DNA of 38,176 nucleotides. Source: a virus. The stretch is taken from positions 1-38,176 of the IMG/VR virus record IMGVR_UViG_3300033158_000305; one strand, given 5' to 3'. The notes beneath the pieces were generated by a model. It saw only the letters and a program-made list of their open reading frames with translations. It was not told the DNA's origin and made no database searches. Positions 11,398 through 30,196 of the stretch are shown piece after piece. The first letter of the stretch is position 1, and each line of letters begins with the position of its first letter. The translations under genes and the position numbers were made by a program.

Positions 11398-11871
11398 ATG
11401 ATGAGAATGAGAGCAGCCGCAGCCGTCCTGGCCGTGCTCGCGCTGGCCGGATGCGGGGGATCCGCCTCCGCAGCGCACGGCACCGCGCCCGCCGCGGCGC
11501 AGCAGGCTGACAGCCAGCCCGGGGGATTCCCGCCGGCCGCGGTGGCGAACCCGGTGCCCGTCCTCCGCATGACCGGCGTCCCGGTACCGGCCGGGGAAGT
11601 GAACGGCACGCCCGGGCTCGACGCTGACCGCGTGGCCAGCGCGTCGTTCCCCGGCCCGTTCGGCGAGACGGTATGGGTGTTCACCTACCCGTCGGCCGCT
11701 TACCGCGATTACCGGCTGGCGCGCCCGCTGACCCCGCCCGCCGATGGTGTGACGGCCATCCGGGGGCCGGGCGCGTCGGTCATCCTGGTGGACACGTCGG
11801 GCATGCCGGACGCGACCGGCCCGTCACCACAGCAGGTCGCTGCCCGGGTGCACGGCACGGTCGTCCGCTAG
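11398..11871 (+). CDS. predicted lipoprotein, plus strand, between tail chaperone and tape measure
   Basis: A 157-residue protein with a textbook lipoprotein signal: basic start (MMRMR), hydrophobic core and lipobox LAGC with the acceptor at Cys19, followed by a low-complexity Ala/Gln linker and a globular part (ETVWVFTYPSAAYRDYRLAR). No further domain is recognised. A GAGGAG lies 10 nt before the ATG. It runs against the operon and its TAG shares bases with the TAG of the convergent chaperone frame (CTAG at 11868-11871). That placement is typical of a cargo gene with its own promoter. Because phage surface lipoproteins such as the TP-J34 Ltp type block DNA injection through the tape measure, superinfection exclusion is a plausible but untested role. 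Confidence 0.8.
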   Translation: MMRMRAAAAVLAVLALAGCGGSASAAHGTAPAAAQQADSQPGGFPPAAVANPVPVLRMTGVPVPAGEVNGTPGLDADRVASASFPGPFGETVWVFTYPSAAYRDYRLARPLTPPADGVTAIRGPGASVILVDTSGMPDATGPSPQQVAARVHGTVVR

Positions 11872-12535: not shown

Positions 12536-12840
12536 GCGCCCGCCACGGCGCGCACCGCGTCGGACAGCCACCGGTACGGGTGGTGCATCTGGCTGGCCGG
12601 GTGCTCCAGGAACGTGATCACGTAGCTGCCGCCGATGCGGCAGGACGGGCCCTGGCTGTCGGTTTCCACCACGTAGTGGATGCTATCGGCGGTGTGCCCG
12701 GTGATGCGGTGGTACCGGGCTTTCGCCCCGGCGGTGACCTCGCGGCCGAGCGCGGGCAGCAGGTCGCGCATCACCGGGCCTGCCGGGTCCCGGTACCAGT
12801 CCTGCCAGGCCCGCTCGTCCCACTCCGGCGCGCGGGCCAC
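12532..12840 (-). CDS. small neck/tail-assembly protein
   Basis: A 102-residue protein (WDERAWQDWYRDP, LGREVTAGAKARYHRITGHT, RIGGSYVITFLEHPASQMHH) with the pattern of short head-tail joining proteins of the HK97 gp10 class: an N-terminal helix, then a beta-rich half with a G-H-T turn and an aromatic, histidine-containing end. Its GTG start directly abuts the TAG of the tail-tube gene, with AAGGTGGG inside that gene's last codons as ribosome-binding site. Location after rather than before the tube gene is slightly unusual for the gp10 class, so the assignment is tentative. Confidence 0.65.
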   Translation of the reverse strand: MARAPEWDERAWQDWYRDPAGPVMRDLLPALGREVTAGAKARYHRITGHTADSIHYVVETDSQGPSCRIGGSYVITFLEHPASQMHHPYRWLSDAVRAVAGA

Positions 12841-13248
12841 CTAGCCCACCTTGACGATGTTCCCGGACGCCTTCCACGACGCCGAGATGGTGACCGCGCC
12901 GTCCACCTTCGCGTCGGCGGAGAAGTCGACGATGATGCTGCCGTAGAAGTACTGGGTCGTCTTGAGCGTCGACGGGTACAGGTACATCTTCCTGGCAACC
13001 CCGTCAACTGCTGCGGTGTAAGTCTGCACTGTGGCGTCATCATAGAACCCGGAGAAATCTCCCGACATGTCGGGCAGACCTGCGATGTAGGTCTTGTTCG
13101 TGTCCTGGAACGCCGTCACCTCGTCGGTGTCGGTGGCCATCTTGATCGACCAGCTGTTCAGGTACGCGACCGGCTCAGGCGTCCCGCCGCTGGCCAGGTT
13201 GACGTAAACCACACCATTTCGACCATGGATTCGGCTCGTCGGACTCAC
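12841..13248 (-). CDS. major tail (tube) protein
   Basis: A 135-residue, beta-rich protein (PVAYLNSWSIKMATDTDEVT, LPDMSGDFSGFYDDATVQTY, YFYGSIIVDFSADAKVDGAV, ISASWKASGNIVKVG). The strand pattern, the internal D-x-SGDFSG motif and the ending A-S-W-K-A-S-G resemble short siphophage tube proteins that form the hexameric tail tube. It lies between the tail completion/glycosyltransferase pair and the tail chaperones, which is the expected place. The start is GTG behind a weak GATGGG; the first ~60 nt are lower in G+C than the rest. Confidence 0.82.
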   Translation of the reverse strand: MSPTSRIHGRNGVVYVNLASGGTPEPVAYLNSWSIKMATDTDEVTAFQDTNKTYIAGLPDMSGDFSGFYDDATVQTYTAAVDGVARKMYLYPSTLKTTQYFYGSIIVDFSADAKVDGAVTISASWKASGNIVKVG

Positions 13249-13280
13249 CCCATCTGTGATTAGAACAACTAAGCGAATAC

Positions 13281-14321
13281 CTAGCTGTCGATCCCGAGCA
13301 GCCGCATGACCTGCGCTGCGTGATTCGTGAACGTGCGGTCGGCGGCTGCCGCGCGGGCCTTGGCCGCCAGCTCGCGGCGCAGGTCATCCTTCGGCAGGTA
13401 CCAGCGGAGCAGCTCGCCGGCCTCCTCCGCGGAACCGAACGACGGCAGCATGCCGAACACCGCGTCGCTCTCAGGACGCGGATCGCGCAGGAAAAACGCG
13501 CCGCACGCCGCCATCTCCACCTCGCGGGGGCCGATGCCGTGCCCCTCGATCAGGTCCTCGAAATTGGCCTCGCGGCGGTACAGGTTGATCCCGGCGCGCA
13601 TCGTCCGGTACATCTCGGCCACCTCGGCGTTTCCGGTGATCGCGCTGGCGCGCCCGTCCAGCAGATGCGCGTTCAGCGGCGAGCCCTCCGGCAGGCCCGT
13701 CCAGTTCCCGGCCAGCACCACATCCAGCCCGTCCAGCCCCATCTCCTCCAGGAACCTCACCCGGGAGGCGAACCCGGACCCGGCGAACGCCAGGTCATAG
13801 CGGAACGGCGTCCCGGGGCTGGCGGGGAAGTGCACCGATGGCCGGTAGCCGTGCGGGCAGTACACCGCCCGGCACACCTTCGCGAACTTCGGCACCGACA
13901 CCGGGTCGTTGACCAGGTGCAGGTCGGCGTACGGCGCGGTCATCAGCTGCCGGTCGTCCTCGTACGGCGACTCGGTGTGCAGGATCACCACCGTGGTGCC
14001 GTACGCCCTGCGGGCGTGCTCGAGCAGCTCGGCGTCCCAAAAGAACGCGCTGACCAGCAGCAGGATGTGCGGGCGGGCCTTCCACAGCGCCGCCGCCAGC
14101 CCGTTCAGCGCGAGCTCGATCACGTCGTCGTCGTCAGTGAATGCCTTGCGGTACTGGTCGTGCTCGCCGGGGATGTAGGCGCTGTCATAGAACACCAGCC
14201 GGTCGCCGGTGTTGTACTCGGTCACGTCCTGGCCGAGCCCGCGCAGCGCCTCGGCCCACCCCTCGTACACGTCCCCGACCGACGCCGACGGCCCGGGGTG
14301 GCAGATCAGCCAGCGGGTCAC
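13281..14321 (-). CDS. CgeB-like glycosyltransferase
   Basis: A 346-residue protein with the fold signature of GT-B glycosyltransferases of the CgeB/YkvP type: an N-terminal half with WLICHPGPSASVGDVYEGWA and LLLVSAFFWDAELLEHARRA, a middle VVILHTESPYEDDRQ segment, and a C-terminal donor-binding half with FAGSGFASRVRFLEEMGL, INLYRREANFEDLIEGHGIG and REVEMAACGAFFLRD. The GTG start overlaps the TGA of the tail completion gene. Its place directly upstream of the tail-tube gene suggests that its acceptor is a tail protein, in line with phage-encoded glycosylation of virions known in mycobacteriophages; the acceptor is inferred. Confidence 0.82.
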   Translation of the reverse strand: MTRWLICHPGPSASVGDVYEGWAEALRGLGQDVTEYNTGDRLVFYDSAYIPGEHDQYRKAFTDDDDVIELALNGLAAALWKARPHILLLVSAFFWDAELLEHARRAYGTTVVILHTESPYEDDRQLMTAPYADLHLVNDPVSVPKFAKVCRAVYCPHGYRPSVHFPASPGTPFRYDLAFAGSGFASRVRFLEEMGLDGLDVVLAGNWTGLPEGSPLNAHLLDGRASAITGNAEVAEMYRTMRAGINLYRREANFEDLIEGHGIGPREVEMAACGAFFLRDPRPESDAVFGMLPSFGSAEEAGELLRWYLPKDDLRRELAAKARAAAADRTFTNHAAQVMRLLGIDS

Positions 14322-14752
14322 AGCAGCGCGATCACTTCGATGGTGAAGTCGACCAGCGCCTGCACCCCGGTGGTCACCTTCTCCTGGGTCAGGTTCCCGG
14401 TGACCAGCGACGCGGTGGCGTCCAGCGCGTTGATGCCGTCGTCCACGGCCACCGCGTCGGCGATCGCCTCCGCCAGCTCGTACGCCCGGTCCCGTCTCGG
14501 CTTGAGGTCCGGGTCGCCGGAGTAGGAGATGGCCGCGCCGGGCACGTAGTACCGCTCGGTGATCCCGGTCAGCGTCTCGAACGTGTCGTCGCTGCGGGTG
14601 ACGGCCACCACGGGCCGGTTCCGGGACCAGCCGATCACGATCCGGTCGTCCTCCTCGTCGCCTACAGGCGGCCCGTCCCACACCTGCACCCCGGGCAGCG
14701 CCGTCTTCACGCAGGCCAGGATCGCGTCGATCGCGTCCGGGACGGTGCTCAC
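14318..14752 (-). CDS. tail completion/terminator-like protein
   Basis: A 144-residue protein opening with a helix (VPDAIDAILACVKTALPGVQ), then strands and a helix (RDRAYELAEAIADAVAVDDG) and a final beta hairpin (VQALVDFTIEVIALL). This is the layout of small tail-terminator or tail-completion proteins that cap the tube and join it to the connector. Position between the connector and the tail-tube gene supports this. The GTG start has no strong ribosome-binding site and lies 4 nt after the peroxidase stop, so coupling to the peroxidase gene is likely. Confidence 0.65.
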   Translation of the reverse strand: MSTVPDAIDAILACVKTALPGVQVWDGPPVGDEEDDRIVIGWSRNRPVVAVTRSDDTFETLTGITERYYVPGAAISYSGDPDLKPRRDRAYELAEAIADAVAVDDGINALDATASLVTGNLTQEKVTTGVQALVDFTIEVIALL

Positions 14753-14756
14753 GGCG

Positions 14757-16508
14757 TTACGTGGCGGGCTGTGACGGGCCCGGGACCGCGGGCTGCGGCC
14801 CCGCATTCTGCCCCAAAGCAGGCGCGGGGTTGCTGCCAGAGGGGACGACCCCGGCGAATTTCAGCAGGTCCGAGATGCGGAACTGGCCGGGCGCCGGGGC
14901 GACCGGCGGGGCCGGGGAGAACCCGCCGGCGAACACGCCATTGGCGTTGATCTTCATCAGCCGGAGCAGCACGTCGGCGACGATCCGGGCGCCGACCGGG
15001 CCGAGCGTGACCTGCTCGAAATCGGCGGCCGTGCCGGTGTTGTCGAAATTGTCGGTAGTCGGGGACCCGGCGTTGGCGGCGGCCGCCTCGTACAGCACGT
15101 ACAGGAACAGCGGGGTGCCGCCGGAGAACCCGGGGACCGAGGCGGGCACGATGGCGGCCGGGTCGATGGGGGCCAGCCCGTACGCGGCGGCGACGTCCTG
15201 CCCGGACGGGACCAGGTAGAAGTAGCCGCGCACGAAGTCGCGGTAGGCGATCGAGTTGGACCCGGACGGCTGGACCCCGGACGGGCCGCCGATCGGCATC
15301 CCGGCGCCGTTGCCGGCCAGCGGGACGCCGGGCGGCTGGCCGAACATGGACTGGCCGATGCAGTGCAGCCCGTCCGCGCCGCCGGGCTGCTTGAGCACCT
15401 GCAGCGACGCGCCGGGCACCGAGGCGTCGAACAGGTCCTCGGAGAAGTTCCGCCAGTCGATCTGGTGGTCCAGCGTCAGCGGGTACCCGCCGTGCAGGTC
15501 CCCGACCGGGGTCAGCGGCTGGCCTGTCCCGCCGGCCGGGCCGGTCGCCCCGCCCACCCCGGCGAACAGGGTGTTCCGGGCGTTCTTGTTGTTCGGGGAG
15601 ATCACCGGGTTCATCGAGTAGGCGTTCCTGATGATCGAGTGCCCGAACCGGTAGGCCGCGGTCGAGAACTCCACCGGCATGATCGGCTTGCGGACGTCCG
15701 CGCCGGGGTCGTACACCTTGCCCTTGCCGGCCAGCAGCTGGTCGATGACAGACTGGCCGCAGAACAGCGGCAGGAAGTCGTGCAGGATGGCCCACTGGTA
15801 GTACTTGACCACCGTGTTCATTGCCCGGGTGAAGTTCTTGATCCCGAGCGCGTCGACTACCGCGTTATGGAACAGCAGCATGGCCACGTGCAGCTGCGAC
15901 AGGATCTGGTTCTCGTCGTTGCGGGTCTCCACCAGGATCGCCGAGCCGTCCGCGCGGCGGGGCAGGTCGACCACGCCGTTGACGTTGCGGGGCACCAGGA
16001 AGTGCAGCCCGTCACTGCCGTAGAGCTGCGGCGAGACGCCCGGCCCGCCGCCGTATATCTGCGACAGGTTGAGCTTCTTGGACTCATAGTCGTAGACGAC
16101 GTTGCCGCCGGGGTCGAGCAGCGGGGACCGGGCGGTGTCCTTGGCGAAGGAGAAGAACGCGGACGGCTGGGGCTCCAGGTCCAGGGTGATGTCGTGGTCG
16201 ATGAACTGCCCGAAGTAGGTGTACAGGGCGCCGTGGGTGGTGTCGACGCCGCCGCCGGGCTCCAGCATGGCATCGGCCAGGGCGGCCAGGTCGGCCAGCG
16301 CCGTGGTGGTGTCCGGGTGAGGGGCGAACCCGGGCAGCTTGGGGAACATCCGGCCGAACATGGCGGCGGGCTGGCCGGGGGCGGGCGATGCGCCTACTGC
16401 GGCGGAGGCGGGGCCGGCCAGCGCCCGGCCCCCGCCCTTGAGCAGCACGACGGTCCCGGCCGCCCCCAGGCCGAGGCGCAGCAGGTTCCGGCGGGTCAGG
16501 TCTTCCAT
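14757..16508 (-). CDS. heme peroxidase of the animal-peroxidase superfamily with Tat signal
   Basis: A 583-residue protein. The N-terminus is a twin-arginine signal: T-R6-R7-NLLR followed by a hydrophobic stretch and an A-x-A-rich cleavage region around residues 29-37. The catalytic core keeps the superfamily residues: distal Gln101 and His105 in YFGQFIDHD, catalytic Arg196 in VETRNDEN, a conserved LFHNAVVD helix, and proximal heme His290 in AAYRFGHSIIRNAY. By family it would bind heme and use peroxide to oxidise substrates or halides, outside the cytoplasm. ATG start behind GAGGGACGG. It is inserted between a gp6-like connector gene and a tail completion gene with no composition change. It could be a cargo gene for the host surface or a virion-associated enzyme. 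Confidence 0.93.
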   Translation of the reverse strand: MEDLTRRNLLRLGLGAAGTVVLLKGGGRALAGPASAAVGASPAPGQPAAMFGRMFPKLPGFAPHPDTTTALADLAALADAMLEPGGGVDTTHGALYTYFGQFIDHDITLDLEPQPSAFFSFAKDTARSPLLDPGGNVVYDYESKKLNLSQIYGGGPGVSPQLYGSDGLHFLVPRNVNGVVDLPRRADGSAILVETRNDENQILSQLHVAMLLFHNAVVDALGIKNFTRAMNTVVKYYQWAILHDFLPLFCGQSVIDQLLAGKGKVYDPGADVRKPIMPVEFSTAAYRFGHSIIRNAYSMNPVISPNNKNARNTLFAGVGGATGPAGGTGQPLTPVGDLHGGYPLTLDHQIDWRNFSEDLFDASVPGASLQVLKQPGGADGLHCIGQSMFGQPPGVPLAGNGAGMPIGGPSGVQPSGSNSIAYRDFVRGYFYLVPSGQDVAAAYGLAPIDPAAIVPASVPGFSGGTPLFLYVLYEAAAANAGSPTTDNFDNTGTAADFEQVTLGPVGARIVADVLLRLMKINANGVFAGGFSPAPPVAPAPGQFRISDLLKFAGVVPSGSNPAPALGQNAGPQPAVPGPSQPAT

Positions 16509-16523
16509 GTTTCCGTCCCTCTC

Positions 16524-17324
16524 TCAGATCGACGGCACCGCGTCGTCGCTCAGCAGCTCGGTGACTCTTCGCGGCACCGAGAATGTCCAGCCGGTGGTGG
16601 AGGTGAATATCTCCTCCCCGGCCAGCGGCGGGGCCTGCTGCGCGCCGCGCTGGGTCTCCCACAGATGCCGCAGCAGTTCCTTGCAGGCGTGCAGGTGCCG
16701 CTCGGCGACCGCCAGCCGCCCGACCGTGTAGGCCACCGTCCACGGGCCGTACCAGAACGGCCACCACAGGTTCTGGTGCACGGTGCCGGAGTCGCCGTCC
16801 CACAGCAGCTGAGGTGCGGTCCAGGACGGGCCGCCGCTCCAGATCGAGGTGACCGACTCGACGGACAGCACCGGGAACTGCGACAGGGCCAGCACCCGGC
16901 CGCCCTCGTTCACCCGCTCGGTCACGCTGCGCCGCACGCACGGCCCGATCTTGGCCTCGACCACCTCGGTGGCGGCCTGCAGGAAGTTCCGCAGCTCGTC
17001 ATCATCGGCGGTGCTGGTGATGTTCAGGTGCGCCTTGGCCTCGGCCACCGACAGGATGGAGATGAAGTCCCGGACGCTGAAGTAGTCCACCGCCGCCGTG
17101 CCCGGCGTGCCGGTGACCCAGGCCACCTTGTGCAGCCCGGCCTGGGTGGTCACGTAGTCGGCGGTCAGCTTCCCGGTGACCACCGGCGGCAGCGTCACCG
17201 GCGGGCTGGCGGTGCTGCCGTCGGGCAGCGTGATCGTGACACTGGCCGACAGCGGGTCAGCCAGCGCCCCGGACGCGTCGTAGACGGACAGGGTGGCCCG
17301 GTAGGTGGTCCCGACATCGATCAC
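16524..17324 (-). CDS. gp6-like head-tail connector with N-terminal Ig-like domain
   Basis: A 266-residue protein. Residues 1-85 are an immunoglobulin-like beta domain (TTYRATLSVYDASGALADPL, TADYVTTQAGLHKVAWVTGT). Residues from about 88 match the gp6-like connector fold: SVAEAKAHLNITSTADDDEL, RNFLQAATEVVEAKIGPCV, then a C-terminal helical part (LHACKELLRHLWETQRG). Connectors of this class form a ring below the portal. The fused Ig-like domain is common in actinophage connectors and may sit on the outside. GTG start at 17324 just after the repeat-protein stop. In most siphophages this gene directly follows the major capsid gene; here it is 13 kb away. Confidence 0.8.
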   Translation of the reverse strand: MIDVGTTYRATLSVYDASGALADPLSASVTITLPDGSTASPPVTLPPVVTGKLTADYVTTQAGLHKVAWVTGTPGTAAVDYFSVRDFISILSVAEAKAHLNITSTADDDELRNFLQAATEVVEAKIGPCVRRSVTERVNEGGRVLALSQFPVLSVESVTSIWSGGPSWTAPQLLWDGDSGTVHQNLWWPFWYGPWTVAYTVGRLAVAERHLHACKELLRHLWETQRGAQQAPPLAGEEIFTSTTGWTFSVPRRVTELLSDDAVPSI

Positions 17325-17330
17325 GCCCGT

Positions 17331-19898
17331 TCACCCGCTCCCCGGTATCGCCGTGCCGATCAGCTCGCGGCCCGCCATGGCGTGCTCTGCGGCAGCCGCG
17401 CCGGGCGTGCTGCGCCCGAACACCACCTGCGGCGGGATGTAGGCGTCCAGCGCGGCGCCGTCGCCGCCCGCGCACCCGGCCGGGACCGTGATCCCGAACC
17501 CGGCGTCCTGCGCATCCCCGGTGCCGTCCGCGCTGTCCGGCAGCGTCAGCCGGGCATAGACGGGAGACGGCGGCCAGGCCGCTCCGATCCCCTGCGCCAC
17601 CCCGGCCTGCGCGGCGGCCGACCCGCCGGGCGGCGCATCCGCTGCAGACCCCGCCGCGTCGGCGGAGTCCGGCAGCACCCGGCCGCTGGCCGTCCAGGAG
17701 GGCGCGTACGCCTGCCCGGCGCCGTCGGCTTGCGCCGGGTAGGCCGGGCTGGCCGCCAGCCCGGTGGCGTCCGGGGCCTGCCCCGCGGCGGCAGCCGCAC
17801 CCGGCAGGGCGGTCCCGGACGCCGCCCAGGCGGCATCCAGGGCGGTCCCGGATGCCGCCGCCTCCGCGGCCGGAGCCGCACCCGGCGCGGAAGTGACCGG
17901 CGTCCCGCCCAGCGCGCCGCCCGCCGCGTCCGCGCTGGACGGAACAGCCAGGCTGGCCGCGGACGCGGTAGCGTCCGCCGCCTGCCCGGCGCCCGCCGCC
18001 TCCGCCGCGGTGACGGTCCCGGTGCCGGATGCCGCGGCGTCCGCCGCCGCCCCGGATGCGTCTGCCAGGAGCGGCTGCGCCCAGGTCTGCCCGGCGGTGA
18101 CCGGCAGGGCCGCATACGACAGCCCGGCCGCGTCCGCCGGGACGGGTGAAGACGCGGCCGAGGTCGTGACAACGGCGTCCTGGGCGGCCGCCGCGCCGTC
18201 GGCGGAACCCGGCGTGACGGCCGCCGTCCCGGCCCCGGACGCCTGCGCGTCCTGCGCCGCCCCGGCCCCGTCAGCCTGCGCGGGGCTGGCGGTGCCGGAC
18301 GCGGAGACCTGCGCGTCCTGCGCGGCGCCCGCGCCGTCGCCGGATCCGGCATTGACCGCGCCGCCCGCGGTGATCAGCGCGATGGCGTCGTACGCCAGCC
18401 CGGCAGCCGCCGGAGTATCCGGCAGTGCCGTGCCGGACGCGGTGACCACCGCGTCGTAGGCCAGCCCGGCCGCGTCGGCGGAGCCGGGCAGCGCGGTCCC
18501 GGACGCGGTGACCGTGCCCGCGTAAGCGAGCGCGGCCCCGTCGGCCTGAGCGGGCAGCGCGGCGCCGGGGGCGGTGACGCCGGCGTCCAGCCCGGACCCC
18601 GCACCCGCAGGCGTGTCCGGCAGCGCGGTCCCGCTCGCGCTGATGGCGCCCGCGTACGCCAGCCCCGCGGCGTCCGCGCTGCCCGCCGCCTGGGTGACCG
18701 GGCCGCCGCCGGTGACGGCCGCGGTAGCGTCGTAGGCCGCTCCGGCGCCATCGGCCTGCGCCGGGGTGACCGTGGTGACGTGCGCGGTGGTGACCGTCGC
18801 GTCGTACGCCGCGCCGGCCGCGTCGACCGGGGTGTCGGCGATCAGGTCGAGCGATACCTGCCAGCCCGCGCCGAACGGGACCTCTCCGGCCCCGTCGGCA
18901 CTGCCCGCGGTGACCGTGGTGAACGTCGCGGTGGTCGGGGAGGCCCCGTAAGCGGTTCCGGCCCCGTCGGCGGAGGCGGCGCTGTAGGTGCCCGGCGCCG
19001 GGGTGTAGTTGACGACCAGGGACACGCCGTCGACCGACTCGGTGGACCCGGAGGCGGCGTGGCCGTAGACCCGGACCCGCAGCGTGGCCAGCTGGGAATA
19101 GGTGACGCCGGTGAACGTGGCCGTGCTCACGTTGCCGGTGCTGGTCGATGGGGTGCCGGCCTGGGCGGTGCCGATCTGCGAGCTGGTGCCGTCCCACAGC
19201 TGGATGGTGCACGGGGCGGCGGTGGCCGTCGACGACTGGTACTCGGTGACCGCGACGGTGACCGAGTTGATCGTGTCGGACGGGCCGGGTCCCGAGATGG
19301 TGAACCCGTACGTTTCCAGGCCCGGCGAGTCTTCCCCGGTGTAGGCGGCCAGCGTCTCGGTGAACGTGACGTAGGCGTCCCCGGCGGCCGCCCCGGTGGG
19401 ACCGTCGTAGGAGTTGGTGACCGTGTACCCGGACGCGCGGGTGCCCTGGTTGTTGACGGTCAGGGTGACCTTGACCCGGTCCCCGGCGGCCAGGGTCGTG
19501 GATGCCGGGGTGATCGAGGACGTCTTGGCCGTGTCAGCGGTGGTGTACTCCGATGAGCTGGTCGGCACCGCGGTGTTGGGCACGATGGTGCCGAGCACGT
19601 TGCCCAGCCCGTCCGTGTGCTCGATGGTGATGCCGGCCTTGCAGTTGGCCGACGTGCTGGATTCCAGGCCGCGGATGTTCGGGGTGATCGTCCCGGAGAT
19701 GGTGACGCCCTGCAGCGTCGGGGTGAGCCAGGTCAGCGCGGTCCCGGCGGCGGTCTTGGTGACCTGGATCGGGGTGGTGCCGGTCGCCGTGTTGGTGACC
19801 GCGGTAGTGCTGGCCGCGCCCCGGCTGGTGCTCAGCGCCTTCTGCCCGGTGCCGCCCAGGTCCGAGGCCGCGTCCCGCAGGTAGAACGTGGTGGCCAT
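17331..19898 (-). CDS. 855-residue virion/surface protein with ~24 ADGAG-type repeats
   Basis: Residues 1-310 are a beta-rich, Thr/Ser-rich region (SDLGGTGQKALSTSRGAAST, CTIQLWDGTSSQIGTAQAG, TYSQLATLRVRVYGHAASGS) that resembles phage decoration or fibre beta-sandwich domains. The remaining ~540 residues are about 24 tandem units of ~22 residues with a consensus close to (S/Q)AD(G/A)AG-x-AYDA, a variable strand and T-x-LP(G/D/A). No family name is known to me for the repeat. The start is the ATG that overlaps the TAA of the upstream gene (TAATG). Probably an extended stalk or fibre. Because the same repeat links two domains of the hub-like tail protein at 1337-3568, the two may form parts of one structure. 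Confidence 0.75.
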   Translation of the reverse strand: MATTFYLRDAASDLGGTGQKALSTSRGAASTTAVTNTATGTTPIQVTKTAAGTALTWLTPTLQGVTISGTITPNIRGLESSTSANCKAGITIEHTDGLGNVLGTIVPNTAVPTSSSEYTTADTAKTSSITPASTTLAAGDRVKVTLTVNNQGTRASGYTVTNSYDGPTGAAAGDAYVTFTETLAAYTGEDSPGLETYGFTISGPGPSDTINSVTVAVTEYQSSTATAAPCTIQLWDGTSSQIGTAQAGTPSTSTGNVSTATFTGVTYSQLATLRVRVYGHAASGSTESVDGVSLVVNYTPAPGTYSAASADGAGTAYGASPTTATFTTVTAGSADGAGEVPFGAGWQVSLDLIADTPVDAAGAAYDATVTTAHVTTVTPAQADGAGAAYDATAAVTGGGPVTQAAGSADAAGLAYAGAISASGTALPDTPAGAGSGLDAGVTAPGAALPAQADGAALAYAGTVTASGTALPGSADAAGLAYDAVVTASGTALPDTPAAAGLAYDAIALITAGGAVNAGSGDGAGAAQDAQVSASGTASPAQADGAGAAQDAQASGAGTAAVTPGSADGAAAAQDAVVTTSAASSPVPADAAGLSYAALPVTAGQTWAQPLLADASGAAADAAASGTGTVTAAEAAGAGQAADATASAASLAVPSSADAAGGALGGTPVTSAPGAAPAAEAAASGTALDAAWAASGTALPGAAAAAGQAPDATGLAASPAYPAQADGAGQAYAPSWTASGRVLPDSADAAGSAADAPPGGSAAAQAGVAQGIGAAWPPSPVYARLTLPDSADGTGDAQDAGFGITVPAGCAGGDGAALDAYIPPQVVFGRSTPGAAAAEHAMAGRELIGTAIPGSG
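17400..18974 (-). repeat. tandem ~66-bp coding repeats, about 24 units
   Basis: The units encode blocks such as SADAAGLAYDAVVTASGTALPD and QADGAGAAQDAQVSASGTAS. Most are 22 residues, several 20-26. Adjacent units near 18400-18700 are the most alike, which suggests recent duplication there; units towards 17400 are more diverged. Confidence 0.85.
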
Positions 19899-22672: not shown

Positions 22673-23623
22673 TCAGGTTATGCGCCACACCCCGTTGGCA
22701 CTCCACTGGATCGTGTTCCCGGTGAAGTAACGGAAACCGGCGCGGCGCGCGTACCAGGTGCGGGCCGGGGTCTCGACGCACCACACGAGATCCGTGGTCT
22801 CCTCTGCGGCGGTGAAGTCGGCCACCTTACCGGTCCGGCTGCCCTCGCTGGCGAGCAGCTGGGCGTCCGGCGGCAGGGTGCTGGTGGTGTGCCAGCCGAT
22901 CGTGTCGCCGCCCTCGGCGGTGACTGCGGGCCAGCGGTGGTCCGGGGTCGTCACCGAGGAGTGGCCGTAACCTTCCATCCGGGTGACGCGGTACGGGCCG
23001 TTGGTGAAAACGTGGACGGCGCCGGCGGGCTGCCATTCCTCGGCGCCGGTTTCCGTGTCCAGGGTCAGGCAGTCATCGCCCGCGCGGACCTGGTCGTGGC
23101 GCAGCCAGCCGCGGCGGGTCAGGATCTCCGTCTCGGCGTCCGCGCAGAACGTTCCGTTCGTGACCGCCGCCCCGGTGCCGAAGTTGTTGAAGCAGACGCC
23201 CTGCTTGGCTACCGGGGACGAGATCGTGTCGTTGTAGACGAAGCAGCCATACGCGTTGGACAGCGTGCACGCGGTGCCGGAGGCGAGGTCGGCGGCGTCG
23301 AACATGGCGATGCCCGCGCCGCCGGTGGCGGCGGTGGTGTTCGCGGTGGCCAGCGCCAGCCCGGCCTGCGGCCACTGCACCGCCTGGTACACCTGCGGCG
23401 ACCCGGTGCCGCCGCCGGTCGCCGACCAGGACGACCCCGAGTAAGCGAACGCCGCCGCGGTGTCATCGCGGCTCGGGGTGATCGTGTTGTCGTACAACGC
23501 CACCCGGAACGTACTCGGGGTAGCGGTGGACTTCCACGCCCAGTTAGACCCAGTGTTCGTCAGCAGTCCGCTGAACATGTCCACCATCAACTGCCGTGAT
23601 AGCCCGCTTGCTGACCATGCCAT
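22673..23623 (-). CDS. virion structural protein interrupted by a mini-intein
   Basis: A 316-residue precursor. The exteins (residues 1-159 and 304-316) join to a 172-residue protein of a common actinophage virion family that starts MAWSASG and ends GTFTIQWSANGVWRIT, with an N-A-Y-G-C-F-V-Y-N-D strand. Residues 160-303 are an intein: block A begins CADAETEILTRRGW, block B contains TTPDHRWP, and the end is VWCVETPARTW...FRYFTGN followed by Thr304. The ATG at 23623 has AAAGGAAA upstream; earlier in-frame ATGs lack this. The intein must be removed for the conserved C-terminal strand to form. It may be a head decoration or tail component. Confidence 0.85.
   Translation of the reverse strand: MAWSASGLSRQLMVDMFSGLLTNTGSNWAWKSTATPSTFRVALYDNTITPSRDDTAAAFAYSGSSWSATGGGTGSPQVYQAVQWPQAGLALATANTTAATGGAGIAMFDAADLASGTACTLSNAYGCFVYNDTISSPVAKQGVCFNNFGTGAAVTNGTFCADAETEILTRRGWLRHDQVRAGDDCLTLDTETGAEEWQPAGAVHVFTNGPYRVTRMEGYGHSSVTTPDHRWPAVTAEGGDTIGWHTTSTLPPDAQLLASEGSRTGKVADFTAAEETTDLVWCVETPARTWYARRAGFRYFTGNTIQWSANGVWRIT
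22715..23146 (-). other. mini-intein (Hint domain), 144 residues, Cys/Asn with +1 Thr
   Basis: Cys160 (first residue) and Asn303 (last) with Thr304 as the +1 nucleophile. The block B His is present in TTPDH. The penultimate residue is Gly instead of the usual His, as in many bacterial phage inteins ending TGN. There is no homing-endonuclease domain between blocks B and F; only about 50 residues separate them. Base composition is like the host gene. Confidence 0.85.
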
Positions 23624-24241: not shown

Positions 24242-24354
24242 CGCCGCCACCGCCACCAGCGGACCCGGTACCGGGTGCACCCGCACAGCCCGCAGTCGCT
24301 GCCAGCCCGGTGGTGCTCGTGCGACTCATGGGGGTGCCCGCATTCGCAGGTCAC
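24238..24354 (-). CDS. 38-residue Cys/His-rich peptide (zinc-ribbon-like)
   Basis: Very short but well formed: CECGHPHESHEHH and DCGLCGC give paired Cys knuckles joined by a His-rich loop, a pattern frequent in small actinobacterial and phage proteins. It is tied on both sides by GTGA overlaps, to the Pro-rich gene upstream and the CPNC gene downstream. The basic Trp/Arg tail (YRVRWWRWRR) could bind nucleic acid or membrane. Function unknown. Confidence 0.6.
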   Translation of the reverse strand: MTCECGHPHESHEHHRAGSDCGLCGCTRYRVRWWRWRR

Positions 24355-24677
24355 GGCCCGGCACCGCTCTTGCCCGCGGCCGGGTCCGGGTTCACCGTGG
24401 CGTGGCGGCGGCCCTTCGGCGGCGGGTCCGGCTCGGTCACCTCGGCGTGGTCCGGGCCGCTTTCCGCCGGCGGGTCCAGCGGCGGCGGTTCCGGCGGCTG
24501 GACGGCGGGTCCCGGGTCGGCGGGCTGCACGGGGTCGTCGTCCGTCTCGTCCAGCACGGTGCGGAAGTCCGGGCCCAGCTCGGCGTCCAGCGGCACGATC
24601 TCGCCGGGCTCGTGCAGCAGCTCGCCGTGCGGGCCGTACACCGGCGCGGTCAGCCTGCGGACTACCTTGCGCGTCAT
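24351..24677 (-). CDS. 108-residue Pro/Asp-rich protein with own start inside the aminotransferase frame
   Basis: It begins at an ATG preceded by AGGAG seven bases upstream and opens with TRKVVRRLTAPVYGPHGELL and HEPGEIVPLDAELG, followed by a disordered Pro/Glu/Asp-rich tail (PAVQPPEPPPLDPPAESG). It is in the same frame as the aminotransferase, with no stop between them. The ribosome-binding site argues for a separate protein, while the open frame would also allow a fusion. No family is recognised. Confidence 0.6.
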   Translation of the reverse strand: MTRKVVRRLTAPVYGPHGELLHEPGEIVPLDAELGPDFRTVLDETDDDPVQPADPGPAVQPPEPPPLDPPAESGPDHAEVTEPDPPPKGRRHATVNPDPAAGKSGAGP

Positions 24678-25865
24678 GAACGCTCCTATACTCAGCGACG
24701 GGTACCCGCCGGGTCCGGGATGCGGCCCGTAACTCCGTGCAAGCCCGGCAGCCAGCCACAAGGCCGCTAAGGAGGCTGGCCTGAAGCCTCTGACCGCCGC
24801 GATCACCCGGTCCTGCTGGGCCTCGGTCATGTCCGGGAACAGCGGCAGCGTGACCAGCTCCCGCCACGCTGCGTCGGTCACCGGCAGCGGCTGGCGCTCC
24901 CCGAACACCGGGTACCGGTTCAGCGGCTTGTAGTGCACCCCGGCGGAGATGCCCCGGGCGAGCAGGTGGCTGATCAGCGCGTCCCGCATCTCAGCAGGCA
25001 CCCGGATATAGAACAGGTGCCAAGCCGATCCTTCCCGCCAGCGCGGGGTGCGCAGCCAGACCCGGCCGGGCAGTTCGGCCATGTACCGCAGCACCAGCCC
25101 GCGGCGGGCCTTGTTCAGGTCCTCGATCCGCTCCAGCTGGGCCAGCCCGACCGCGGCGGCGATGTCGGTCATCTGGTACTTCCACCCGGCCCGCGGCACG
25201 TCGTAGTCCCAGTTGTAGCCCGCCCGCGATTCCCGCTCCCAGGTGCTGCGCTCGATGCCGCACCAGCGCAGTTTCCGCGCGGTTCCCGCGATATCCGCGT
25301 CATCGGTGGTGATCATGCCGCCGTCGCCGCAGGCCAGGTTCTTCACCGCCTGGAACGACCAGCAGGCGGCGGTGCCGTTCTGCCGTCCCGCCCTGGTGCT
25401 GCCAGCCGCGTGCGCGCAGTCCTCGATCACCGGGTCCAGCCACGGGAACGGCGGGCTGGTCACGGTCCCGCCGTAGTGCACCGGCACCACGGCCCGGGTC
25501 TGGTCCCCGGCCTTCGCCCGCACGTCATCCCAGTCCAGGCACAGCGTCTCGTCATCGACGTCGGCGAAGATCACCTGCGCGCCCGCGTGCAGCGCCGCCA
25601 GCCCGGTGGACACGAACGTCAGCGCGGGGCAGATCACCTGCCCGCCGCGCACGCCGAGCGCTTCCAGCGCCAGGTGCAGCGCTGCGGTGCACGACGACAC
25701 GGCCACCGCGTGCTTAGCGCCTGCGTACTCGGCGAACCGGCCCTCGAACTCCTCTGTCCGGGGGCCCTGCCCCCACCAGCCGGAATCCAGCGCCTCGCAG
25801 ACGTACCGCTTCTCCAGGTCGGACACCGAGGGGCGGAACAGCGGGATGACGTCCTGGCCGGTCAC
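24351..25865 (-). CDS. DegT/DnrJ/EryC1-type PLP sugar aminotransferase, read into the next gene
   Basis: Residues 1-360 are a complete sugar aminotransferase of the DegT family: substrate entry IPLFRPSVSDLEKRYVCEAL, PLP-binding VAVSSCTAALHLALEALG, Asp149 in VIEDCAHAAG, and PLP-lysine Lys175 in WSFQAVKNLACGDGGM, with a typical C-terminal lobe (GISAGVHYKPLNRYPVF). Such enzymes transaminate keto-deoxy nucleotide sugars. The normal family end is near residue 360, but the frame continues without a stop through a low-quality linker into the Pro-rich protein (total 504). A one-base change there would end the protein at TAG after about VRASGQPP. GTG start overlaps the methyltransferase TGA. No sugar dehydratase is present in the window, so the keto sugar must come from elsewhere. 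Confidence 0.88.
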   Translation of the reverse strand: MTGQDVIPLFRPSVSDLEKRYVCEALDSGWWGQGPRTEEFEGRFAEYAGAKHAVAVSSCTAALHLALEALGVRGGQVICPALTFVSTGLAALHAGAQVIFADVDDETLCLDWDDVRAKAGDQTRAVVPVHYGGTVTSPPFPWLDPVIEDCAHAAGSTRAGRQNGTAACWSFQAVKNLACGDGGMITTDDADIAGTARKLRWCGIERSTWERESRAGYNWDYDVPRAGWKYQMTDIAAAVGLAQLERIEDLNKARRGLVLRYMAELPGRVWLRTPRWREGSAWHLFYIRVPAEMRDALISHLLARGISAGVHYKPLNRYPVFGERQPLPVTDAAWRELVTLPLFPDMTEAQQDRVIAAVRGFRPASLAALWLAAGLARSYGPHPGPGGYPSLSIGAFMTRKVVRRLTAPVYGPHGELLHEPGEIVPLDAELGPDFRTVLDETDDDPVQPADPGPAVQPPEPPPLDPPAESGPDHAEVTEPDPPPKGRRHATVNPDPAAGKSGAGP

Positions 25866-26446
25866 GGCTGGCCCGCCTTGTGCAGCATCGCCTGGCCGTA
25901 CCGGTACCACAGCTCGGCGATGCCCGAGCCGGGGGATTCCGGGTAGTGGGCGCCGCCGTCGTACGCGCCGGGGGCGGGCTCGAGCAGCCGGACCCAGGAC
26001 TGGGCCAGGTCCAGCATCGAGGTGCCGCCGAACGTGCCGGAGGAGGCGAACGGCTCGGCGAACGCCACCGGCCAGTCCTCCAGCACGTACCAGCCGCCCG
26101 GCCGCACCTGCGGCCACAGCAGCGCGAACGTCCGCCCGGACAGCGCCCCGTGGTGGCTGGCGTCGTCGACGACCAGGTCCCAGCCGCCGGGGGAGGCCGC
26201 CCTGGCGGCCTCTGCCATCTCGCCCGAGTCCTGATCGGCCACGATCCGCACGGTGCCGTCCGGCCAGGTGCAGGACGCGTCGCAGTCGGCCCCGGCGACC
26301 ACGCCGTCCGGGAACAGCTGCTGCCACATCTTCAGGCTGTCGCCCTGGTAGACGCCGACCTCCAGCACGTGCCCGGCCGGGCCGATCTCCCGGGCCAGCC
26401 GCTCGTACGCCGGGTAGTAGCCGAGGGTGAACTTATCGGTCGTCAT
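25862..26446 (-). CDS. class I SAM methyltransferase, sugar O-methyltransferase-like
   Basis: A 194-residue protein with SAM motif I GHVLEVGVYQGDSLKMW (residues 25-41), an acidic strand VAGADCD, and WDLVVDDASHHGAL (residues 89-102). The D-D-A-S-H-H motif is typical of metal-dependent sugar O-methyltransferases such as the macrocin/mycinose type. It would methylate a hydroxyl of a sugar or of the virion glycan. ATGA overlap with the exonuclease gene upstream and a GTGA overlap with the aminotransferase gene downstream link it to the sugar cluster. Confidence 0.85.
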   Translation of the reverse strand: MTTDKFTLGYYPAYERLAREIGPAGHVLEVGVYQGDSLKMWQQLFPDGVVAGADCDASCTWPDGTVRIVADQDSGEMAEAARAASPGGWDLVVDDASHHGALSGRTFALLWPQVRPGGWYVLEDWPVAFAEPFASSGTFGGTSMLDLAQSWVRLLEPAPGAYDGGAHYPESPGSGIAELWYRYGQAMLHKAGQP

Positions 26447-26970
26447 CGGGCCAGCCCTGTCAGCCCGCGGAGACGGAACGCGACCTCGCGGGCATCACTC
26501 AGCGCGTTATGTTCCGTCACGCCGGGCATCGGCGGCAGTTCCGGACCGCCAGCCTTCTCAGCCGCCTGCCGCAGGTCGTGCGTCCACATCGGGATACCGG
26601 CCGGAAGCCTGATCATGGTGCCCCATAGCTGGCAGAGCACCACGTGGTCATAAGCGGCATAGTCGGCCCACAACTGCGGATCCGGCACGGCAAGTATGAA
26701 GTCCCGGACCTCATTTGCGATCACCTGATGCGGCTTGACTTCTGTCCTGGTGACGTCCACCCTGATCAGCTGCTCAGAATGAGCGTCTTTTACGGGCAGT
26801 GACGGCACAACGTTATCCATCAGCCACTTATGCGCGAAAATCCGCTTTACGGGCATCTCGGAATTGACCGCGTAATACTCGCGGCCCTCCCCGGCTACCA
26901 TGCCAATCGAGATCAGGTCAATGGTCCGGCCGTCCTCGATGAACTCGGTGTCATAGCAAATCTCAGTCAT
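26443..26970 (-). CDS. DEDDh 3'-exoribonuclease, RNase AS-like
   Basis: A 175-residue protein with ICYDTEFIEDGRTIDLISIG (Asp7/Glu9), PQLWADYAAYDHVVL (Asp103 or Asp108), and VTEHNALSDAREVAF (His154/Asp159). This residue set and the N-terminal wording match the actinobacterial RNase AS group (mycobacterial Rv2179c), which trims adenylate-rich RNA ends. It lies among sugar-modifying genes and overlaps the acetyltransferase gene by 8 nt. Its G+C is clearly lower than that of its neighbours, especially in 26700-26960, which suggests recent entry. It could act on host or phage mRNA in the cytoplasm. Confidence 0.85.
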   Translation of the reverse strand: MTEICYDTEFIEDGRTIDLISIGMVAGEGREYYAVNSEMPVKRIFAHKWLMDNVVPSLPVKDAHSEQLIRVDVTRTEVKPHQVIANEVRDFILAVPDPQLWADYAAYDHVVLCQLWGTMIRLPAGIPMWTHDLRQAAEKAGGPELPPMPGVTEHNALSDAREVAFRLRGLTGLAR

Positions 26971-27436
26971 CGGGCCAGCCCCGGCCGTGCTTCTCCATGA
27001 CCAGGTACTCGCCGTCCGGGGTGCGGCCGGTGATGGCGAACCCGTTCCGCTCGTGGAAGGAGATGGTGACGTGGTTCCACGGGTATATCCGCAGCCAGTA
27101 GCGCTCCAGCCCGTAGGCGTCCATCACCTGCCGGAACGCGGCGCGCATCACCCCGCCGCGGGAGATCGACTTGTCTCCCAGGATCATCCGCTCCAGCTCG
27201 CCCTTCCCGTCCCGGATGGTCATGGCCAGGCACCCGACGGGTTTCCCGTCCAGTTCGGCGATGAACATGGCCTGCGACGGGTCCCGCTCGTAGACGTCCC
27301 GGAACCAGCGGCCGTGCTCCAGCTCGGTCAGCGGCTCCCGGGCCGGGAAGTACTTCGCGTTCTCGTTCCGCCACCGCACCAGCAGCGGCGCGTCGCCACC
27401 GTGGATCTTCCGCACGCTCACCTGCCCGGCGCTCAC
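26963..27436 (-). CDS. GNAT N-acetyltransferase, sugar-amine type
   Basis: A 157-residue protein with GNAT features: VSVRKIHGGDAPLLVRWRNE, AMFIAELDGKPVGCLAMTIR, the acetyl-CoA-loop region LGDKSISRGGVMRAAFRQVM, and the closing IYPWNHVTISFHERNGFAIT. R-W-R-N-E-N-A-K and the N-H-V-T-I-S-F-H-E-R-N-G-F end resemble acetyltransferases of amino-deoxy sugars and RimJ-like enzymes. Paired with the DegT aminotransferase it would make an acetamido sugar. The start is the GTG overlapping the preceding TGA; an ATG 16 codons upstream would overlap the neighbour. Confidence 0.8.
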   Translation of the reverse strand: MSAGQVSVRKIHGGDAPLLVRWRNENAKYFPAREPLTELEHGRWFRDVYERDPSQAMFIAELDGKPVGCLAMTIRDGKGELERMILGDKSISRGGVMRAAFRQVMDAYGLERYWLRIYPWNHVTISFHERNGFAITGRTPDGEYLVMEKHGRGWPDD

Positions 27437-27618
27437 GACTGCCTGCCCGGGCAGCAGTGCCGCAGCCGCATCCGGTGACAGCACGGCTGGTACGGGTGGA
27501 ACACGGCTCGGCGGGACAGCCGTCCCCAGCCGATGACGATGATCCGGTGCGGCCAGTACGGGATGTTGACGTGCAGCGGGGAACGGCGCAGGCTAGCCGC
27601 CCAGTGCCAGCCGCTCAC
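27433..27618 (-). CDS. 61-residue Cys/His/Trp-rich small protein
   Basis: Short, basic and rich in His, Cys and Trp (VSGWHWAASLRRSP, RIIVIGWGRLSRRAVFH, YQPCCHRMRLRHCCPG). Two Cys-Cys pairs with flanking His could bind zinc. It is coupled on both sides by GTGA overlaps, to the GT2 gene and to the acetyltransferase gene. No family is recognised, and because it is short and overlaps other open frames it is less certain than its neighbours. Confidence 0.5.
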   Translation of the reverse strand: MSGWHWAASLRRSPLHVNIPYWPHRIIVIGWGRLSRRAVFHPYQPCCHRMRLRHCCPGRQS

Positions 27619-28343
27619 GACCGGTCCCCCAGGGTCCGCCGCCCGGCGGCGGGCTTGTCCCAGCTGGACAGCGGGGTGGCCCGGTGGGTCATCAGCCGGT
27701 CCGGGACGGGGTGCAACGGGTGGGCATCGGCGAGCTTCTGCAGGAACATGCCGTCGTTGTGGTGGGCGGTGGCCCGGTCCGGCGGGAACCACGGCTGCGG
27801 GATCTCGTCCAGGCACTCGCGGCGGTGCACCACCTGCCCGCCGTCCACCCGGCAGTCGGCTTTCTCCTGGCGGCAGCCCTTGCCGACCTCGCACACGGCG
27901 GGGATCGACCCGGCCGGCCGGAACCGGCCCTGCCGCTCGTCCCAGGAGACGCGCCACATGGTGAACCACACCGCGTGGTGCTCCGGGTGCGCGGCGAACT
28001 CGGCCAGCACCCGGGAGACCAGGTTCGGCTCCCACAGGTCGTCATCGGAGATGTAGGCGATGAGCTCCCCGGCCGCCTTGCCGTAGTACCGGTTCATCAG
28101 CACCGCCGGCGTCCACGCCCGCGGCATCCGCTCATCCTCGCCGAGGGTGATCTCCTCGTAGATGACCCGCGGGTCGGCGGTCAGCGGGGCCAGCGCGGCC
28201 CGGGTCGCCCCGCCGTCGTCAGAGTTCTCCAGGATCCACAGCTCCAGGTCGCCGCAGTCCTGGGCGAGCACCGAGGCGGCCGCCTCGGTCACGTAGCCCG
28301 GCTTGTTGTACGACGGCAGGAACACCGAGACGGCCGGGCTCAC
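27615..28343 (-). CDS. GT2-family glycosyltransferase
   Basis: A 242-residue GT-A enzyme: SVFLPSYNKPGYVTEAAASV (residues 6-25), LELWILENSDDGG, and the metal/nucleotide-binding D-D-D at residues 100-102 in AYISDDDLWEPN, followed by a Cys-containing middle (VCEVGKGCRQEKADC) and AHHNDGMFLQKLADAHPL with a typical acceptor-side aspartate. It would transfer a sugar from a nucleotide donor in the cytoplasm. The GTG start overlaps the TGA of the 86-residue gene. It belongs to the coupled sugar cluster. Confidence 0.85.
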   Translation of the reverse strand: MSPAVSVFLPSYNKPGYVTEAAASVLAQDCGDLELWILENSDDGGATRAALAPLTADPRVIYEEITLGEDERMPRAWTPAVLMNRYYGKAAGELIAYISDDDLWEPNLVSRVLAEFAAHPEHHAVWFTMWRVSWDERQGRFRPAGSIPAVCEVGKGCRQEKADCRVDGGQVVHRRECLDEIPQPWFPPDRATAHHNDGMFLQKLADAHPLHPVPDRLMTHRATPLSSWDKPAAGRRTLGDRS

Positions 28344-28600
28344 ATCCGGTCCCCTCCCGCGCCGGGCACGGTGGCCGCCGCTGCGAACGCCACCGGGTCC
28401 AGCACGTCCACGCCGCCCGTGCCGCGGACCACCCAGTCTCCCGGGCTGGCGGTCATCTTGCGGCCCAGGAACCATATCTCCAGCGGGGCGGCGGCGCCCA
28501 TGTGCTCGATCTGCGCGAACCCGGCCCCGGCCTGCATCAGCATGGCGTACACCGCGGCGCAGGAGTCCGGGTCGCCGGGGTCCCACCGGTACGCGGTCAC
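28340..28600 (-). CDS. 86-residue phage protein, relative of the gene upstream
   Basis: Shares the motif PGDWVVRG and its surroundings with the 91-residue protein directly upstream (LGDYVIRG), so the two appear to be diverged duplicates. It lacks the YPC motif of its partner. GTG start in a GTGA overlap. No known function. Confidence 0.65.
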   Translation of the reverse strand: MTAYRWDPGDPDSCAAVYAMLMQAGAGFAQIEHMGAAAPLEIWFLGRKMTASPGDWVVRGTGGVDVLDPVAFAAAATVPGAGGDRM

Positions 28601-28872
28601 CGGGTGATCTCCTGCTCGCCTGCGGGCTCGTAGGTGGCCTCGAAGATATCGGCGCGGCACGGGTAGAACTCGCCCTGCACGCCGCGGATCACGTAGTCGC
28701 CGAGCCTGGCCTTCATGACGCCCTCGAGCGTGTCGACGAGCAGCGCGGGGACGGGCGCGTCCAGGCCCCAGCACTCTTTCACGCCCGCCCAGGCGCCGAC
28801 GGCCTCGAAATTCTCCCGGGTCAGCAGCTCGGCGTCGACTTCCACTTCCACCGGCCGCTTGCGGTACCTCAC
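28597..28872 (-). CDS. 91-residue widespread phage protein (RKRPVEVE...YPC)
   Basis: Begins VRYRKRPVEVEVDAELL and contains MKARLGDYVIRGVQGEFYPC followed by RADIFEATYEP. This ending resembles a small protein family found in many unrelated phages, described only as hypothetical. GTG start in a GTGA overlap with the GT4 gene; the longer frame upstream is only the shadow of that gene. Confidence 0.75.
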   Translation of the reverse strand: MRYRKRPVEVEVDAELLTRENFEAVGAWAGVKECWGLDAPVPALLVDTLEGVMKARLGDYVIRGVQGEFYPCRADIFEATYEPAGEQEITR

Positions 28873-29924
28873 CGGCTGATCTCCTGCGGGGGCTGGCCGC
28901 GCCCGGCGGACGCGGCGGCGGCCTCGTAGGCGCTTTCCCACAGGGCCCACCGCTTCTGGATGGTCCACTCTGCCGCTAGGGCCTTGCCGTTGCGGCCCAT
29001 CTCCTCCCGCGCGTCCGGGTCGTTGACGAGCTCGCGGAGCCGGGCCGCCCACTGGTCCTCATTCCGGCACAGGTAGCCGTTCTTCCCGTCGATGACGAAC
29101 CCGCGGTACGGCTCCATGTCCTGGGCGATCACCGGCACCCCCCGGGCGAACGCGTCCAGCGCCTTGAGGTGAGACTTGCTGCGGTTGAACTTCACGTCGG
29201 CCAGCGGGGCCAGCGCGATGTCGAAATCGTAGTCGCGGTAGAAGTCCCAGACGTCCTCTTTCCAGATCGTCCGCCGGCACTGGCTGAGGACCCGCGGCGC
29301 GCGGACCCACAGGACCGGGGTGTAGTCGACGCCGATCGCGTGGAAGTCGGCCTGCGGGTTCGTCTCCAGGACGTGGATCAGCGCCTCCTGGATGCCGAGG
29401 ATGTCGATCAGGTGCGACGCGCCGCCCGCCCAGCCGATCGTCACCCGGTCCCGGCGGGTCCGCTCCAGCCGCAGCAGGTCCTCATGGATGCAGTTGGGCA
29501 GCACGATAACCGGCGCCTCGGTGACCTTGCCGAACTCCTCGGCCAGGTACTCCGTTGAGACGGTCACCGCGTCCGAGCGCCACAGCATGTACCGGATCGA
29601 CTCGCGGATCCGGTCATCGCACAGCGCCGCCAGCCCCGACGCCTCCGGGTGCAGGATGTCATCGTCGCACTCGTACACCCGGGCGCACGCGCCGTCCATG
29701 TCGTCCCAGATCTTGCGGCCCTGCGCGCCGACCGGCCGCTGCATGACCAGCACGTCGATGCCCAGGTCGGCGATGTCCTTGCGGGTGGGCGGCGGCGGGG
29801 TCTGGACCGGCGGGCCCTCGTAGAAGTGCTGGGACCGGTTGCGCAGCTCCTTGAACGGCTGGAACAGCCGGTGGTAGCCGGACCCGTCCGGCCCGGCGGA
29901 CACGCCGACGACATGCAGGACCAT
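28869..29924 (-). CDS. GT4-like glycosyltransferase
   Basis: A 351-residue GT-B enzyme: N-terminal half with GVSAGPDGSGYHRLFQPFKE and DVLVMQRPVGAQGRKIWDDM, then the donor-binding half with TIGWAGGASHLIDILGI (residues 162-178) and DFDIALAPLADVKFNRSKSH followed by LKALDAFARGVPVIAQDMEP. It would add a sugar in the cytoplasm. The start is ATG at 29924 with GAGGAG upstream; the frame continues upstream but without sensible protein. It is the first gene of the coupled sugar cluster and faces a divergent plus-strand gene across a 36-bp spacer holding phased repeats. Confidence 0.85.
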   Translation of the reverse strand: MVLHVVGVSAGPDGSGYHRLFQPFKELRNRSQHFYEGPPVQTPPPPTRKDIADLGIDVLVMQRPVGAQGRKIWDDMDGACARVYECDDDILHPEASGLAALCDDRIRESIRYMLWRSDAVTVSTEYLAEEFGKVTEAPVIVLPNCIHEDLLRLERTRRDRVTIGWAGGASHLIDILGIQEALIHVLETNPQADFHAIGVDYTPVLWVRAPRVLSQCRRTIWKEDVWDFYRDYDFDIALAPLADVKFNRSKSHLKALDAFARGVPVIAQDMEPYRGFVIDGKNGYLCRNEDQWAARLRELVNDPDAREEMGRNGKALAAEWTIQKRWALWESAYEAAAASAGRGQPPQEISR

Positions 29925-29934
29925 GTGACTCCTC

Positions 29935-30191: not shown

Positions 30192-30196
30192 GAGGA

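Follow-up and report, generated by a model that had tools for sequence, protein, structure and literature searches.

A predicted exported heme peroxidase carried among the head and tail genes of tailed phages

Described peroxidases and phage cargo genes

Heme peroxidases of the myeloperoxidase superfamily have so far been known as cellular, mostly extracellular enzymes with roles in defense and cross-linking. The published motif definition of this peroxidase-cyclooxygenase superfamily, which we used throughout, comprises GQxxDHD (with the distal His, an ester-forming first Asp and a calcium-binding second Asp), RxxE and a proximal His (PMC4420034). The partner of the proximal His is Asn across the superfamily, except in families 4 and 7; in DyPs and in the peroxidase-catalase superfamily, which is unrelated, Asp takes this role (PMC4420034). 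DdPoxA is a secreted peroxidase that oxidizes iodide and thiocyanate and restricts bacteria (PMC5787809). Among the predicted viral proteins of BFVD, only the heme peroxidase of Orpheovirus (A0A2I2L5A1) matched the fold studied here. Lom and Bor of lambda are morons of tailed phages, and Lom is an exported moron in the tail operon of lambdoid phages.

The gene analyzed here, P0001, lies in a window of 38,176 bases with 72% GC, the whole stretch of DNA examined, from IMG/VR virus record IMGVR_UViG_3300033158_000305. Its product resembles the short bacterial peroxicins of family 5 (PMC4420034) in the GQxxDHD and RxxE motifs, the proximal His and the single domain, and the nearest sampled cellular sequences are peroxidases of Thermoleophilia MAGs (L308 and L309). 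Unlike these peroxicins, the phage enzymes form a separate phage-borne clade, and those of the window subclade have a Tat signal and an Asp as the proximal partner. Membership in family 5 is suggested by length and bacterial relatives only. The fold and catalytic residues are like those of lactoperoxidase, myeloperoxidase (MPO) and DdPoxA, the last of which is also secreted, but the identity in structural alignments is 12-14%, and Asn200 replaces a Met of MPO. The Orpheovirus protein has the same fold but is 15% identical and belongs to a giant virus of eukaryotes with no link to phages. Like lambda Lom and Bor, the gene is an extra, often exported one set cleanly between structural genes; unlike them, it encodes a redox enzyme and has no detected promoter or terminator of its own, in a scan that is weak at 72% GC. 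Exported cargo genes within structural operons are a known kind of gene. No description of a phage or viral peroxidase was found in the open-access literature, which leaves out most subscription papers, and the enzyme class and the phage-only lineage appear to be new within the databases and open-access literature searched.

The peroxidase gene and its product

A preliminary description had reported an intact, twin-arginine-exported heme peroxidase of 583 residues between connector and tail completion genes. Its coordinates were exact, and the strand, which it left unstated, is minus. The features of the gene and its surroundings are as follows.

14757-16508, minus strand: heme peroxidase coding sequence P0001, 583 aa, ATG start, TAA stop (Pfam, AF2 model, Foldseek)
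16416-16508, minus strand: Tat-type signal peptide, residues 1-31, with TRRNLLR, a hydrophobic stretch and ALA/G cleavage (by inspection)
16191-16211, minus strand: distal motif GQFIDHD, residues 100-106 (Gln101, Asp104, His105, Asp106), invariant in 48 rows
15912-15923, minus strand: distal RxxE motif RNDE (Arg196, Glu199), invariant in 48 rows
15639-15641, minus strand: predicted proximal heme ligand His290, invariant in 48 rows, aligning to the proximal His region of MPO/LPO
15237-15239, minus strand: Asp424, where an Asn (Asn421 in MPO) usually hydrogen-bonds to the proximal His, alignment of 48 rows
16509-16523, minus strand: 15-nt intergenic stretch GAGAGGGACGGAAAC, purine-rich and SD-like, separating the stop codon of the upstream gene from the peroxidase ATG
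16524-17324, minus strand: upstream flank, head-tail adaptor (phrog_442 match, 3e-24)
14318-14752, minus strand: downstream flank, presumed tail terminator/completion gene (phrog_22863, unknown function, and placement)
13281-14321, minus strand: glycosyltransferase (PF13524, Pfam) adjoining the tail genes, context only
12841-13212, minus strand: major tail protein (phrog_1407), context only

The gaps around the peroxidase gene were 15 nt upstream and 4 nt downstream, and its GC content by codon position (0.68/0.49/0.96) was like that of neighboring genes, in agreement with the normal spacing and composition reported earlier. The reported flanks held in part: the upstream gene matched a head-tail adaptor, and the downstream gene matched only phrog_22863, the name "tail completion" coming from its place before the major tail protein. 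The order past the peroxidase was the phrog_22863 gene, the glycosyltransferase and the major tail protein. A promoter scan of positions 12800-18000, weak for 72% GC actinophage DNA, found no sigma70-like site. No terminator flanked the peroxidase gene, and the sole terminator-like site of the same region was inside the glycosyltransferase gene. Because of these two results, the peroxidase looks to be co-transcribed with the tail genes.

The protein matched the animal heme peroxidase family of Pfam (PF03098) at 43.9 bits, with a gathering score of 25, and all 22 members of the viral alignment matched it as well. The profile search that the preliminary description had proposed thus assigned the expected family; P0001 had no PHROG and no NCBIfam match. 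Conservation was examined in an alignment of 48 rows, 22 viral and 26 cellular. GQxxDHD was present with the distal Gln101 and His105 and, by motif, the ester-forming Asp104 and calcium-binding Asp106; RxxE provided the catalytic Arg196 and, by motif, the ester-forming Glu199; and His290 stood as the proximal His. In HMM alignments to lactoperoxidase, DdPoxA and MPO, Gln101, His105, Arg196 and His290, all at the positions first reported, fell on catalytic residues. An AF2 model made with the 48-row alignment had a mean pLDDT of 77 and a pTM of 0.84, superseding a model from 22 rows (pLDDT 67). The best solved structures found by Foldseek were the cyanobacterial peroxidase 8s6c, myeloperoxidase, DdPoxA and lactoperoxidase (E 4.5e-12 to 5e-11), with TM-scores of only about 0.5. 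The best 50 Foldseek matches all belonged to the superfamily, in keeping with its alpha-helical fold. These comparisons confirmed P0001 as a complete predicted enzyme of the peroxidase-cyclooxygenase superfamily with all catalytic residues, and heme binding and peroxidase activity are predicted for it and its relatives.

Two positions near the heme departed from MPO. The residue after Glu199 is Asn200, where MPO has the sulfonium Met243. Since this Met is replaced, a third heme link as in MPO would not be expected, and the enzyme is expected to be lactoperoxidase-like. The other is position 424, which was Asp in all five sequences of the window subclade (the window and its four nearest relatives) and Asn in the other 43 (17 viral and 26 cellular). 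We take Met243 and Asn421 to be the MPO positions that map to Asn200 and Asp424. The usual proximal His-Asn hydrogen bond is therefore not present in the window subclade, at a position where the superfamily already has exceptions. Asp424 may tune the heme, and the change from Asn to Asp would be a natural experiment on such tuning.

The N terminus of P0001 reads MEDLTRRNLLRLGLGAAGTVVLLKGGGRALA, followed by G after the cleavage point. By inspection, it has a twin-arginine n-region, a hydrophobic stretch and an AxA-type cleavage site, and the same form was seen across the Tat subclade, so the twin-arginine signal of the preliminary description stood. By eye, an export signal was found at the N terminus in 21 of the 22 clade members, Tat in one subclade and Sec in others. 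RR-type Tat signals were assigned to 14 members (the window, L002, L003, L005, L007, L008, L096-L101, L108 and L114) and Sec-type signals to 8 (L009, L011-L014, L106, L107 and L110), both by eye; L112 showed no clear signal peptide by eye as assembled. The Pfam TAT_signal profile matched only 1 of the 22. The occurrence of two export routes within one clade suggests that leaving the cell is itself a trait under selection in these peroxidases.

Relatives, genomic sites and mobility

IMG/VR searches returned 14 and then 38 loci, among which P0001 had 21 distinct relatives, 39-83% identical to it; with the window, they made 22 distinct sequences of one clade. Each of the 15 virus records checked had exactly one peroxidase copy. 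None of the 50,697 catalogued phage records of INPHARED matched P0001 or L106. More distant peroxidase relatives (L115-L119) were found on IMG/VR contigs at 26-30% identity; L115 and L116 lay outside the phage clade, and all five could come from host DNA or from other viruses.

The first tree had a branch with an SH-aLRT of 99 that placed all 22 viral sequences on one side. After enlarged cellular sampling, L308 and L309, which stand in cellular surroundings and are 39-40% identical to the viral member L013, joined the viral group via a long branch. The best tree found kept the 22 viral rows together, with a log-likelihood 0.83 above that of the free search and a p-AU of 0.53. A single origin of the viral sequences is compatible with these trees, which rest on limited cellular sampling; they do not contradict it and fall short of proving it. 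The simplest reading would be capture from an actinobacterial lineage.

In 84,980 genomes, 232 pattern-matching stretches reached at best 35% identity to P0001. Scans of partly overlapping sets of 396, 396, 299 and 299 genomes with a viral model gave a best cellular score of 377 bits and scores of 645-817 for viral members, a gap that is partly circular because the model was built from viral members, so that the trees are the fairer test. A recent host passenger was rejected, as no close cellular copy appeared in the genome scans. Pairwise dN/dS was 0.17-0.49 by the Nei-Gojobori method, which should overstate the ratio, as dS is understated at GC3 near 95%. These values, together with the lack of change in any catalytic residue, indicate that the gene is not decaying and is under purifying selection.

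As named by PHROG and Pfam matches of neighboring genes, the peroxidase was mostly within head/tail gene blocks, at differing places. It adjoined the head-tail adaptor in the window and Neck1 in L002 (by homology, likewise in L097 and L100). Its neighbors were the head protease and major head protein in L007 and L101, the portal and protease in L114, the capsid in L112, and the terminase and portal in L012. In L009 and L110, it was a few genes past the portal; in L106/L107, it was preceded by a peptidase gene (phrog_16701), within a cluster that is homologous to the one in L009; and in L005, L098, L099 and L108, it stood some 3 kb after a presumed capsid gene. No clear structural neighbors were found by PHROG or Pfam for L003, L011, L013, L014 and L096.

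The gene moved with precise ends. Between the window and L002, which are unrelated phages, DNA similarity was confined to the gene (83% over 1731 columns). Between the unrelated L098 and L100, 80% identity began 2 bases ahead of the start codon and ended 3 bases past the stop codon. Conversely, the pairs L007/L101, L005/L098 and L002/L100 had flanks 70-84% identical around peroxidases from two different Tat subgroups; with common flanks and different subgroups, the peroxidase genes would either replace one another or have been gained separately at a favored site.

Empty sites were also found. L288 has 16 bp where L100 has the peroxidase, with flanks 84-91% identical, and in L316 and L323, of the window's own family, the head-tail adaptor is followed by the presumed terminator gene without a peroxidase. 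Of the lineages with relatives of the L101 capsid, only two had the peroxidase; at this site, the others had small ORFs, a short gap, nucleases of the HNH or endonuclease VII type, or an exported protein (in L184). The preliminary description had proposed looking for the same gene at the same site in related phages; it is usually absent from close relatives and occupies several sites in the structural block. Since most close relatives lack the gene, it is dispensable. An extra gene among structural genes, with relatives that have a clean empty site, corresponds to a moron, and neither presence in most family members nor a fixed place, as for a virion structural protein, was observed. As read from the sequences, the peroxidase gene is a mobile cargo gene with an exported product rather than a structural gene, the result of mis-assembly or a passenger recently taken from a host. 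This agrees with the earlier proposal of an exported cargo within a head/tail operon and adds that it is part of a phage-only clade.

The exported protein at the site of the L101 peroxidase, L184:3732-5795, is a Sec-exported GH12-like protein with FN3 repeats; its GH12-like domain had a Pfam E of 2e-5, just below the cut-off, and an E of 1e-4 to PDB 6sdu. Nucleases of the HNH and endonuclease VII types lie before the capsid gene in L149 (3655-3888), L205 (1878-2264 and 3053-3667) and L187 (4759-5472). One route proposed for gene exchange among phages involves homing-type nucleases at the boundaries of exchange (PMC10448857). The nucleases before the capsid gene could possibly drive exchange at that site; that those at the L101-type site moved the peroxidase is a guess.

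Possible role of the exported enzyme

The closest matches of the window's portal and terminase, about 33-37% identical, were in phages of Mycobacterium, Gordonia and Arthrobacter, so the host is likely actinobacterial. We consider it probable that the peroxidase is a single-gene, moron-like cargo of tailed phages, read with the head/tail genes, and that the exported enzyme oxidizes small substrates outside the infected cell. The catalytic set, export signals, purifying selection, phage-only clade, gene-precise mobility, empty sites and preference for the structural block come from sequence; from there we infer heme binding and activity, late expression, the host and the benefit. The infected cell would make the peroxidase alongside the late proteins, and the enzyme would be loaded with heme and sent out by Tat, or by Sec in other members. 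Outside, it would use H2O2 to oxidize small substrates such as phenols, thiocyanate and iodide. As a result, peroxide would be removed, and the infected cell's surroundings or envelope, or the progeny it releases, would be chemically changed. As to the benefit, we would place removal of peroxide, or oxidation of material outside the cell, ahead of a changed envelope that blocks competing cells or phages.

Other readings were weighed against this one. The exported product could instead attack phenolic/humic or matrix polymers around the host, as exported carbohydrate-active cargo would. The GH12-like protein of L184 at the same genomic site points in this direction, but it is one example, and members of the superfamily are not established lignin-type enzymes; we regard this as rather unlikely. 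Ovoperoxidase cross-links the envelope of the fertilized egg, and an exported enzyme that alters or cross-links the host envelope could likewise aid a lysogen or exclude other phages. Such lysogenic conversion or superinfection barrier would fit the export signals in the clade, the exported morons of lambdoid tail operons (Lom) and the lipoprotein with a weak HNH-like motif that the window and L100 share as another exported cargo. However, only one of 16 records (that of L096) contained a tyrosine integrase and none a serine recombinase/resolvase, these records being fragments, and the gene sits tightly in the late operon, with gaps of 15 and 4 nt to its neighbors and no promoter-like site. 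We judge conversion or a barrier unlikely.

Packing of the enzyme in or on the particle, which the preliminary description had also raised, could explain the repeated placement among head/tail genes of diverse phages. The clade, however, has kept cleavable signals of two unrelated types, Tat and Sec, which disfavors packing in the cytoplasm, and unlike a structural protein, the gene varies in its site within the block and is absent from related phages. A virion-associated enzyme therefore seems very improbable to us. The preliminary description had further named a mis-joined contig as a possible flaw. Only one window-like contig has the gene at exactly this junction, as might be expected if a cellular gene had been mis-assembled onto a phage contig or were a decaying recent passenger. 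Mis-assembly was rejected by independent related contigs with filled, otherwise filled and empty sites, and purifying selection and the separate phage clade also argue against an artifact, which we find scarcely credible.

In a wider account, to which we give about even credence, an old phage-only lineage of exported myeloperoxidase-type enzymes would owe its retention to selection for oxidative chemistry outside infected cells, and the gene would have passed among phage families as a gene-precise module in the virion gene block; one subclade would have re-tuned its heme (proximal Asn to Asp), and a larger one would have moved from Sec to Tat. If true, phages would release oxidizing enzymes around the cells they infect, which would be a layer of phage ecology so far unstudied.

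Several other genes of the window were recorded. The lipoprotein-like exported protein with the weak HNH-type motif ELDHLIPLVLGGAN is encoded at window positions 35273-35941 (minus strand) and at L100:11942-12664; the two genes have 67% DNA identity in differing surroundings, and the protein is possibly a second mobile exported cargo. The proteins encoded at 17331-19898 and 22673-23587 had no Pfam match. The glycosyltransferase at 13281-14321 is GT-B-like, its arrangement before the major tail protein gene is kept in distant relatives (L316, L335, L337, L338 and L008), and it may glycosylate the tail tube. A sugar-gene cassette at 24351-30209 (minus strand), between the capsid and the head-tail adaptor, contains two glycosyltransferases, a GNAT, a methyltransferase and a DegT-type aminotransferase. 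A putative lipoprotein gene at 11398-11871 is on the plus strand, opposite to the peroxidase, and separates the tail-chaperone region from the tape measure gene.
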